Source: Actinomyces mediterranea (GTDB lineage Bacteria; Actinomycetota; Actinomycetes; Actinomycetales; Actinomycetaceae). From it: DNA of 64,000 nt. Every line of letters begins with the position of its first letter. Positions within the stretch are counted from its first letter, which is position 1. Made by a program: the position numbers and the translations under genes. Below, one piece after another: positions 59,689 through 61,294 of the stretch. The stretch spans positions 1-64,000 of the forward strand of contig NZ_FTPB01000003.1 of NCBI RefSeq assembly GCF_900155595.1. Direction: 5' to 3'. The notes under the pieces are model-generated. The model was not told the DNA's origin. It did no database searches and saw only the letters and a program-made list of their open reading frames with translations.

Positions 59689-59751
59689 TCGCGGGTGGTG
59701 GCGCTGGGGCAGATGATGCCTACCCCGCGCATCCAGAATGCGGACATCGGA

Positions 59752-59779
59752 TTGCGCAGGTCACTCCCATCGCTACAGT
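59752..59779 (+). promoter_or_regulatory. trp leader promoter
   Basis: TTGCGC (59752-59757), 16 bp, TACAGT (59774-59779), then 7 nt to the GTG of the trp leader peptide. The spacing suggests the leader peptide itself is translated from a leaderless message. Confidence 0.6.
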
Positions 59780-59786
59780 CATCACC

Positions 59787-59828
59787 GTGACGACATGCAC
59801 AACCCGCACCTGGTGGCGGCTCCCGTAA
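59787..59828 (+). CDS. trpL: trp operon leader peptide
   Basis: Thirteen codons, GTG start and TAA stop, reading MTTCTTRTWWRLP. Two tandem Trp codons (59811-59816) stall ribosomes when charged tRNA-Trp is scarce. The Trp codons lie at the front of strand 1 of the attenuator. No Shine-Dalgarno is present; initiation would be leaderless. Confidence 0.85.
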   Translation: MTTCTTRTWWRLP

Positions 59829-59885
59829 GGCGAGCCGCTCACTGTTGTACCCTATTCACGCTCGCCCTCGTCGGCGGGCGTTTTT
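59816..59885 (+). promoter_or_regulatory. trp transcription attenuator
   Basis: Four pairing segments can be read. Strand 1 GCGGCTC (59816-59822, over the last Trp codon) pairs with strand 2 GAGCCGC (59832-59838). The overlapping strand 2 element GGCGAGC (59829-59835) pairs with strand 3 GCTCGCC (59860-59866) as antiterminator. Strands 3 and 4, CGCTCGCC (59859-59866) and GGCGGGCG (59873-59880), form a terminator followed by TTTTT (59881-59885). A ribosome stalled at the Trp codons frees strand 2, so low tryptophan would allow trpB expression. Confidence 0.88.
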
Positions 59886-59934
59886 CGCACCCGGGCCCGC
59901 CTGACACTCGACCATCAACTCAGGAGAAACCCCG

Positions 59935-61215
59935 ATGACCGCTCACAACCCCGCAGGAGCCGCTCCCACCGCCAACCGCATCCCGACGGGAAGCATTGAC
60001 GGACTCGGCGAGGCGAGAGTCCGCGACACCATCCTCCCCGCATTCTTCGGCCGCTTCGGCGGCCAGGAAGTCCCCGACTTCCTCCTCCCCGCACTCGACG
60101 AACTCGAAGCCGCCTTCACCGAAGCGATGAGCGACTCGGAGTTCCTCGCCGAACTCGACGAGTTGCGCCGCACCTACCTCGGACGCGAGACCCCTCTCTT
60201 CGAATGCCGCAACCTTCCCGTCGGCGGCGGAGCGCGCATCGTCCTCAAGCGCGAGGACCTCGCCCACGGCGGCGCCCACAAGGGGAACAATGTCCTCGGG
60301 CAGGCGCTCTTGGCCAAGAGGATGGGCAAGAAGCGCCTCATCGCAGAGACCGGCGCCGGCCAGCACGGCACCGCCACCGCCATGGTCGCCGCACTCATGG
60401 GAATGGAGTGCACCATTTACATGGGTGCTCACGACGTCGCCCGCCAGCGCCCCAATGTCGAGCGCATGGAGCTCATGGGCGCAACTGTCATCGGCGTCAC
60501 CCAGGGCAATCAGGGCCTCAAGGACGCGATTGACGTCGCCCTCGAAGAGTGGAGTACGCGCCTGGAGGACACCTTCTACCTCCTCGGCTCTGCCACCGGC
60601 CCCCACCCCTTCCCCACTATCGTCCGCACCTTCCAGGAAGTGATCTCCCAAGAATCACGCGCCCAGATGCTCGATCGCTATGGGCGCCTCCCCGACGCGG
60701 TCGTCGCAGCCGTCGGCGGCGGCTCGAACGCCATCGGCTCCTTCGCCAACTACATCGCCGACGAGGGCGTGCGCCTCATCGGCGTTGAGCCCGCCGGAAA
60801 GGGCCTCGATTCGGGCGAGCACGGCGCGCCGATCTGCGCTGGCAGGATCGGTTCCCTCCACGGCATGCGCTCCTTCGTCATGATGAGCGACGAGGGCGAG
60901 GTACTCCCCTCGCATTCCATTTCGGCGGGCCTCGACTACCCGTCGGTCGGCCCCGAGCATGCGATGCTCGCCGACACCGGCCGCGGCGAATACGTCGGCA
61001 TCACCGACGACGAGGCTCTCGAGGCGTTCAAGCTGTTGAGTTGTTGCGAAGGCATCATCCCCGCGATGGAGTCCTCGCACGCCGTGGCGCAGGCGCTGAA
61101 GATGGCGCGCGAGAACATAGAGGCGAATGGGGCGGACGCCGAGCCGCTGCTGCTGCTCGTCAACCTGTCGGGCCGGGGCGACAAGGATATGGAGCAGGTC
61201 GCCGACCGGCTCTGA
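59935..61215 (+). CDS. trpB: Tryptophan synthase beta chain, stand-alone
   Basis: PLP enzyme of 426 residues joining indole and serine to give tryptophan. The PLP lysine is about 116 in [16 protein letters not shown], with [10 protein letters not shown] and the phosphate-binding [10 protein letters not shown]. The motif HKGNN differs slightly from the usual HKTNQ. AGGAG lies 8 nt before the ATG. The gene follows the attenuator, but no trpA or other trp gene is beside it: the next genes are on the other strand after a terminator. Indole salvage, or a partner TrpA encoded elsewhere, are both possible. Confidence 0.95.
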
Positions 61216-61244: not shown

Positions 61245-61274
61245 GGCAGACCGGGCGCTGGCGCCCGGTCTGCC
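61245..61274. terminator. Terminator between trpB and the small membrane protein gene
   Basis: Perfect 14-bp palindrome, GGCAGACCGGGCGC facing GCGCCCGGTCTGCC with a 2-nt centre, 29 bp past trpB. No T tract. It lies between convergent genes and could serve both. Confidence 0.7.
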
Positions 61275-61294
61275 CGAATGCGGGCAAGGGAGTC

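Follow-up and report, generated by a model that had tools for sequence, protein, structure and literature searches.

A tryptophan attenuator of known kind before a lone trpB gene in Actinomyces mediterranea, a setting that recurs among its relatives

Why does Actinomyces mediterranea, in whose genome trpA, trpD and trpE were not found, keep an intact trpB gene behind a trp attenuator, and what might that gene still do? The locus lies in a window of 64,000 nucleotides, the whole stretch of DNA that was analysed (positions 1 to 64,000 of contig NZ_FTPB01000003.1; features in Table 1). A classical ribosome-mediated attenuator, with a leaderless leader ORF that carries Trp codons, is likely to control a stand-alone TrpB used for indole salvage. 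The anatomy of the attenuator and the isolation of the gene are secure; from the evidence set out below, we infer regulation by tryptophan and indole salvage by trpB. The trpB frame of A. mediterranea is intact (426 aa), and its product scored 555.3 bits against TIGR00263, the model of classical TrpB (cut-off 392.45). Against TIGR01415, which we take to cover the TrpB2 type, it scored 148.9 bits, under the curated cut-off of 518.85. The nearest conserved neighbours of trpB, one upstream (presumably a CPBP-type protease-like gene) and one downstream (presumably an SDR-type gene), are both on the opposite strand, so that trpB stands alone. An earlier note on this DNA had claimed as much, reporting a lone trpB with no trpA or other trp gene attached. 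A strong GC palindrome with no T run lies 3' of trpB (61245-61275), ahead of opposite-strand genes.

Table 1. Features of the trpB locus of A. mediterranea (positions in the window)
Feature	Position	Strand	Evidence or remark
-35-like hexamer TTGCGC	59752-59757	+	3/6 consensus matches; 16 nt upstream of the -10 box
-10 box TACAGT	59774-59779	+	7 nt upstream of the leader GTG (59787)
Leader peptide ORF VTTCTTRTWWRLP*	59787-59828	+	GTG start, 13 codons plus TAA
1:2 hairpin	59790-59848	+	Fold; outer-stem swap test
2:3 antiterminator	59829-59866	+	59829-59835 (GGCGAGC) with 59860-59866 (GCTCGCC); swap test
3:4 intrinsic terminator	59858-59885	+	59858-59866 with 59873-59881, then T5 at 59881-59885
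Shine-Dalgarno AGGAG of trpB	59922-59926	+	Sequence; ends 8 nt upstream of the trpB ATG
trpB, stand-alone tryptophan synthase beta subunit	59935-61215	+	TIGR00263; trees

The same note had described a 13-codon leader peptide with tandem Trp codons, a 1:2 stem, a 2:3 antiterminator and a 3:4 terminator with five T, and each of these elements is present in the sequence. The tandem Trp codons of A. mediterranea, two in number, occupy 59811-59816. The 1:2 hairpin consists of an outer stem, in which 59790-59794 pairs with 59844-59848 (a stretch that separates regions 2 and 3) and which begins right after the start codon, and an inner stem, in which 59812-59824 pairs with 59829-59843. The 2:3 and 3:4 helices are mutually exclusive, because the region 2 and region 3 strands of the antiterminator are exactly complementary. 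The fold of the 99-nt leader reached -42.9 kcal/mol, against a mean of -32.36 for 200 dinucleotide shuffles (z = -3.10), none of which was as stable. A simple terminator scan found 2 sites against an average of 0.9 in shuffles, which is hardly above chance. Rfam (4227 families), a library that presumably includes a Trp leader family, gave no match across the 64 kb at gathering scores and none in 59700-59960 at E up to 10. The beyond-chance evidence for the attenuator is the fold z-score and, above all, its conservation in relatives.

For this comparison, 31 leaders were gathered by scanning related trpB loci for an in-frame TGGTGG leader; since they were picked by this motif, they are unfit as a sample for leader frequency. 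WWW occurred in 27 of the 31, A. mediterranea counted in, and the rest had two Trp codons. In A. mediterranea, codon 59817-59819 is CGG, where most relatives have a third Trp codon. At this position the pair in the inner 1:2 stem, read by eye, is U-A in L012, U-G in L004 and C-G in A. mediterranea, so that a sensing codon was lost and the inner stem strengthened. Outside the Trp codons, the leader peptides of the relatives were judged by eye to be variable. One locus of a Halodesulfovibrio MAG (L074, 4775-4919) carries a WWW leader, MQKINNSSILSLRNWWWRW, upstream of a trpB near the contig end, and its genome has a trpA match.

Swap tests, which take the leaders without correction for kinship, were applied to each helix. 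A set of 28 leaders was made of the 31 minus L013, L018, L019, L021, L090 and L074, plus L182-L184. The 1:2 tests took 22 of the 31, leaving out the near copies L013, L018, L019, L021 and L090 and the oddly spaced L014, L016, L017 and L074. For the outer 1:2 stem, native pairing gave -9.27 kcal/mol against -6.2 for swapped strands (0 of 5000 permutations; 22 leaders), and for the 2:3 pairing -14.69 against -12.37 (0 of 5000; 28 leaders). The value for the 3:4 pairing (-16.30 against -11.43; 0 of 5000; 28 leaders) is biased, since the best hairpin was used to define its strands. The inner 1:2 stem varies so little between leaders that it offers little covariation (231 of 5000; 22 leaders). The earlier note had let its reading depend on covariation of the stems among relatives, and such covariation was found in the outer 1:2 stem and the 2:3 helix. 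The T run is weak or absent after the 3:4-like hairpin upstream of trpB in L077, L015, L018 and L019, so that termination there may be weaker or of another kind. A further helix, region 4:5, was considered between region 4 and a complementary GGGCCCGCC block 3' of the terminator (about 59891-59902). This block recurs in several relatives; the swap test gave 134 of 5000 over the 28 leaders and 1895 of 5000 in ten leaders hand-picked for a seeming block, and on these counts region 4:5 was rejected as an unsupported functional helix.

A strict sigma-70 scan found no promoter at the trpB leader of A. mediterranea. Given the distance between the -10 box and the leader start (Table 1), the 5' end of the transcript would be expected to coincide with the GTG or to lie next to it. 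A TANNNT box lies 6-8 nt upstream of an in-frame leader start in 26 of the 28 leaders, whereas shuffled upstream regions averaged 1.70 of 28, with a maximum of 7 over 2000 trials. When only the start nearest the Trp codons was counted, the spacing was seen in 13 of 28 (shuffle mean 1.37, maximum 6, 500 trials). SD-like 4-mers precede the leader start in 2 of 28 leaders. The conserved placement of the -10-like box (26 of 28) indicates that the trp leader ORF is probably leaderless, and it bears out a suggestion made previously from the promoter spacing of the single locus.

The A. mediterranea assembly (G000; 2.4 Mb, 4 contigs) is rated 99.99% complete. A search of this genome for trpA gave 0 matches, with 14 of 14 control genomes positive. 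The best trpD match reached 25.8 bits (cut-off 199.05), and the best trpE match reached only 102.8 bits, at the place of a gene in L002 that looks like an isochorismate synthase gene. An orphan trpC lies between two genes that we take to be hisI and lgt (L001 1492-2337; G000:C3:363992-364735). trpC often adjoins lgt in family genomes without a trpA match; it has perhaps been retained through coupling to lgt, or perhaps has another role. Of the genes for which the earlier note had proposed a genome-wide search, trpA, trpD and trpE were thus not found, and trpC turned out to be present elsewhere in the genome.

A covariance model built from six leaders was searched against the genomes. In A. mediterranea, the trpB leader element scored 103 bits, and a second attenuator, with the leader MMTTRSLRWWWLS, scored 63.2 bits (E 8.6e-15; G000:C1:142572-142683, minus strand). 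Downstream of the second attenuator lie the start of trpE, the end of trpB and a trpA fragment (L185 5200-6900), the trpB piece being most like TrpA-paired TrpBs; judging from these pieces, the second attenuator fronts what appears to be the scar of a collapsed trp operon. Seven further matches were at most 15.6 bits each; the search in this genome scored 150 of 676 first candidates and may have passed over weaker attenuators. No intact gene other than the lone trpB was found downstream of a strong match to the attenuator model in this genome. A "one-gene trp regulon", as the locus had been called, therefore holds for the intact genes found, but a second attenuator of the same family stands before operon debris.

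Lone trpB genes with intact frames were found in a matching neighbourhood in A. culturomici (L003), S. cardiffensis (L004) and S. suimastitidis (L077). In A. culturomici, about 4 kb occupied by other genes separates trpB from the CPBP-type gene upstream, and the three downstream genes are the same. In S. suimastitidis, ileS is directly upstream, and the same three downstream genes are present with two swapped. In S. cardiffensis, ileS and the CPBP-type gene precede trpB, and the locus stops shortly after it. The IleS of A. mediterranea is 95% identical to that of Schaalia cardiffensis over the part compared, which suggests that the two species are close. Besides the lone trpB, the genomes of A. 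culturomici and S. suimastitidis retain trpA, trpC, trpD and trpE at other loci. S. cardiffensis, Schaalia sp. Marseille-Q2122 and S. canis resemble A. mediterranea in that searches of their genomes found trpC and did not find trpA, trpD or trpE. In several Actinomyces, the same trpB leads a trpB-E-G-D-C-B-A run, as far as the loci reach (L005, L010, L011, L022); the overlapping loci L009 and L047 of one contig together also form such a run. Members of genus g23 (G077, G108 and G141, corresponding to L182, L183 and L184; no trpA match) carry a lone trpB of a different TrpB lineage. Their leaders contain WW (MNITHNIRFWWTA, MQTHNNTYFWWIA and MHSITRFWWTA) and are followed by a GC hairpin with a T run; the covariance model scored 27.4 bits in G141 and 25.4 bits in G108, and G077 gave no clear match. 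These results suggest that the arrangement of an attenuated lone trpB arose or was kept more than once.

Across the family, 118 of 151 genomes gave a trpA match (E up to 0.001), G050 being counted among these with a match under the cut-off. The other 33 comprise 20 genomes listed directly and 13 obtained by comparing genome lists. Full-length trpB is present in 16 of the 33 (G000, G024, G027, G030, G054, G074, G077, G092, G098, G108, G109, G121, G122, G141, G142 and G148), and 13 of these 16 genomes carry an in-frame TGGTGG leader ahead of it. Within 420 nt of trpB, G030, G074 and G092 show no TGGTGG leader; the same holds for G050, and the trpB genes of all four (loci L178-L181, in the order G030, G074, G050, G092) are lone. 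Among the same 33 genomes, trpD exceeded its cut-off in one (G113, an assembly that is 57% complete), and trpE reached at least 283 bits in one (G025). None of 42 genomes and only 5 of 14 controls reached the TIGR00564 cut-off for trpE, so that "trpE present" rests on our own line of 283 bits, which falls between intact trpE genes and matches of at most 118 bits. trpC is found in 18 of the 33, some of them without trpB; as it is thus kept more often than trpB, retention alone is no proof of use. A search for tnaA gave no match in any of 23 genomes, with the E. coli control positive. Indole would then not come from an own tryptophanase, but from neighbours. The loss of tryptophan genes in Actinomycetaceae is already known (PMC5404923), from a paper in whose main text the string "trpB" does not occur.

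In a tree of 78 trpB rows, the A. mediterranea TrpB belongs to a clade of 49 rows (support 100/96), which holds 23 lone genes, 14 heading trpE and 12 with their context hidden by a short flank or contig end. A trpA neighbour was found for 0 of the 49, and for the 12 hidden-context rows the genomes gave no trpA match. The sister of this clade holds 16 of 18 TrpA-paired rows (support 92/93). A tree of 95 rows agrees, with a clade of 45 rows (100/97) and 35 of 41 paired rows together (96/92). The 95-row tree was built without L158-L176 (presumed copies), a step that removed, along with other proteins, those of L012, L013, L024 and L030. The 78-row tree restores those proteins, reduces the 41 TrpA-paired rows to 18 and omits seven Corynebacterium rows; a program warning indicated that long branches meet in it. 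A single origin of the lone state was rejected, since the "lone" label takes 6 changes in both trees; lone trpB genes thus arose or remained several times. Also rejected was the idea that the lone trpB is a fallen TrpA partner: the tree sets its clade apart from the TrpA-paired one, and the gene piece closest to TrpA-paired TrpBs is the broken one in the scar.

Positions relaxed in this lineage were sought among 229 positions conserved in 35 paired TrpBs, which were compared with 56 lone-or-lead rows assembled by hand from both trees and including at least G027 twice. The top relaxed position was E. coli beta-175, which is Arg in 35 of 35 paired TrpBs and in 9 of 9 other paired ones (44 of 44 in total), and in 0 of the 56 lone-or-lead TrpBs and 0 of 7 lone TrpBs of other lineages. 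In A. mediterranea TrpB, the corresponding residue, 204, is Glu. Position 175 sits in a helix facing TrpA. According to a simulation study, Arg175 is on helix 6 of the COMM domain, Arg175, Ser178 and Gly179 contact TrpA loop 6, Ser161 and Gly162 contact TrpA residues 65 and 66, and the bond of Arg175 was steady with the TrpA variant A198W but not with the wild type (PMC8187860). Seven of the 14 most relaxed positions fall in the stretch 162-179 (162, 164, 167, 168, 172, 175 and 179) and seven elsewhere. Res6, a count of the six LBCA stand-alone residues, was tried as a marker and rejected, its mean being 2.36 in the clade and 2.06 in paired TrpBs; A. mediterranea TrpB has 3 of the 6, with positions mapped from the alignment. 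As Res6 does not separate the groups, it is the relaxed TrpA-facing stretch, together with the gene context, that suggests stand-alone activity.

The proposed mechanism would run as follows. Transcription would start at the GTG, and the ribosome would load straight onto the 5' end. When charged tRNA-Trp is present, the ribosome would clear the Trp codons and cover region 2, the 3:4 helix would form, and transcription would terminate. When charged tRNA-Trp is lacking, the ribosome would stall at the tandem Trp codons, the 2:3 helix would form, and RNA polymerase would enter trpB. TrpB would then condense external indole with serine to form tryptophan, a salvage reaction in an organism that appears unable to make indole. 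In the absence of TrpA and of any evident supply of indole-glycerol phosphate, indole plus serine is the only tryptophan-forming reaction left, and trpB is probably kept to turn scavenged indole into tryptophan. In favour of attenuation and salvage, we counted the fold, the covariation, the conserved spacing of the -10-like box, the missing trpA, trpD and trpE, the scar, the clade of 49 TrpB rows with no trpA neighbour, the loss of Arg175, the retention of trpB, the low dN/dS values and the lack of a tnaA match. Counted against it were the negative promoter scan, the permutation count of the inner stem, Res6, the highest dN/dS value, the frequency of trpC in genomes without a trpA match, the three trpB genomes lacking a TGGTGG leader and the seven relaxed positions that lie outside the TrpA-facing stretch.

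The attenuator and trpB could instead be useless leftovers of a lost pathway, intact only through recent decay. The same genome does contain a collapsed trp operon and an orphan trpC, the leader has lost its third Trp codon, and trpC, a gene without an evident partner, is kept in 18 of the 33 genomes without a trpA match. NG86 dN/dS, computable in 17 of 45 trpB pairs (range 0.019-0.193) and rough because dS is high or saturated in most pairs, was highest between A. mediterranea and L003 (0.193), a point on the same side; A. mediterranea and L004 gave 0.121. However, the value was 0.044 between the trpA-less relatives L012 and L013, and the frame is intact not only in A. mediterranea but also in the lone copies of A. 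culturomici, S. cardiffensis and S. suimastitidis. Furthermore, trpB survives in 16 of the 33 genomes without a trpA match against one each for trpD and trpE, and the operon pieces are broken in the very genome in which the lone trpB is unbroken. We therefore regard a mere relic as improbable.

Doubt could also fall on the enzyme and not on the switch: the attenuator may be real and TrpB may catalyse something else, for example the deamination of serine or a beta-replacement with a different nucleophile. TrpB enzymes are promiscuous. At residue 90 (E. coli numbering), close to the PLP lysine, 23 of the 56 clade rows have Asn, and all 35 paired TrpBs in the sister clade have Gln. Even so, all 56 rows keep the PLP lysine, E109 and D305, A. 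mediterranea TrpB scores as a classical trpB product, and regulation through Trp codons is fitting for a tryptophan-forming enzyme, so that we rate another reaction as distinctly improbable, somewhat more so than a relic. Least credible, with a very small chance of being right, is the idea that the leader RNA or peptide also acts in trans, like rnTrpL/peTrpL of Sinorhizobium meliloti, control of trpB being secondary. The leaderless layout is the same as that of S. meliloti trpL (PMC7298713), but the apparent variability of the leader peptides outside the Trp codons argues against a trans-acting peptide, and the parts that covary are the helices that serve attenuation.

Several known systems come close to the attenuation with indole salvage that we favour. 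A trp attenuator upstream of trpB1EDGC of Corynebacterium diphtheriae was predicted in 2005 (Seliverstov, PMC1262725); for its leader, MTNMNAHNWWWRA, a study found no transcription start, and the same study states that leaderless transcripts serve 20% of C. diphtheriae genes (PMC5784534). The predicted attenuators of C. diphtheriae and other Actinobacteria resemble that of A. mediterranea in the short tandem-Trp leader, the antiterminator, the terminator and a trpB apart from trpA (PMC1262725). In C. diphtheriae, however, trpB leads a biosynthetic operon, whereas in A. mediterranea it is alone and trpA, trpD and trpE were not found. Parts 1-2 of the C. diphtheriae account contain no mention of an outer 1:2 stem or a stand-alone TrpB (PMC1262725). 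The transcript of S. meliloti trpL likewise begins at the ATG of the leader ORF, but the gene under its control is trpE(G), and S. meliloti has three trp operons (PMC7298713).

On the side of the enzyme, the orphan trpB of Mycoplasma californicum is likewise without trpA, and use of external indole has been proposed for it; this bacterium is unrelated to A. mediterranea, and the passage concerned describes no attenuator (PMC4081997). In Bifidobacterium, mutation shows that trpB is needed to turn external indole into tryptophan and indole-lactate, but there TrpB is part of a TrpC-TrpB fusion in organisms with trpA (PMC11085991). Chlamydia trachomatis, with trpRBA, is also a tryptophan auxotroph that salvages indole with tryptophan-controlled genes, but it retains trpA and uses the repressor TrpR rather than a leader peptide (PMC7755916). 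plTrpB is a classical-type TrpB that is active without TrpA, an activity demonstrated for plTrpB and presumed for A. mediterranea; it has all six LBCA residues as against 3 of 6 (PMC11917138). Among the matches listed in a literature search that left most subscription literature outside, there was no description of an attenuator-controlled lone trpB in trp-less bacteria. The switch is of a known type, and the repeated survival of a one-gene attenuated trpB unit in relatives looks new.

The A. mediterranea locus thus represents a real attenuator of known kind in an unusual and recurrent setting. A broader proposition, to which we give about even chances, is that a stand-alone TrpB lineage dedicated to indole scavenging, which has given up TrpA docking, is present in Actinomycetaceae and corynebacteria, where it heads trp operons or occurs alone, often behind a leaderless Trp attenuator. 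The attenuated trpB would remain after the pathway is lost, and the same one-gene regulon for indole salvage would have arisen at least once more with another TrpB lineage, in g23 (G077, G108, G141). If so, these would be natural TrpBs freed from TrpA, a goal of protein engineers, and the leaders would be a clear example of an attenuator that includes leaderless translation. It would also mean that selection keeps the last step of a pathway together with its sensor when the end product is usually supplied, the step being fed by the indole of a neighbour, and would predict indole cross-feeding in host-associated communities.
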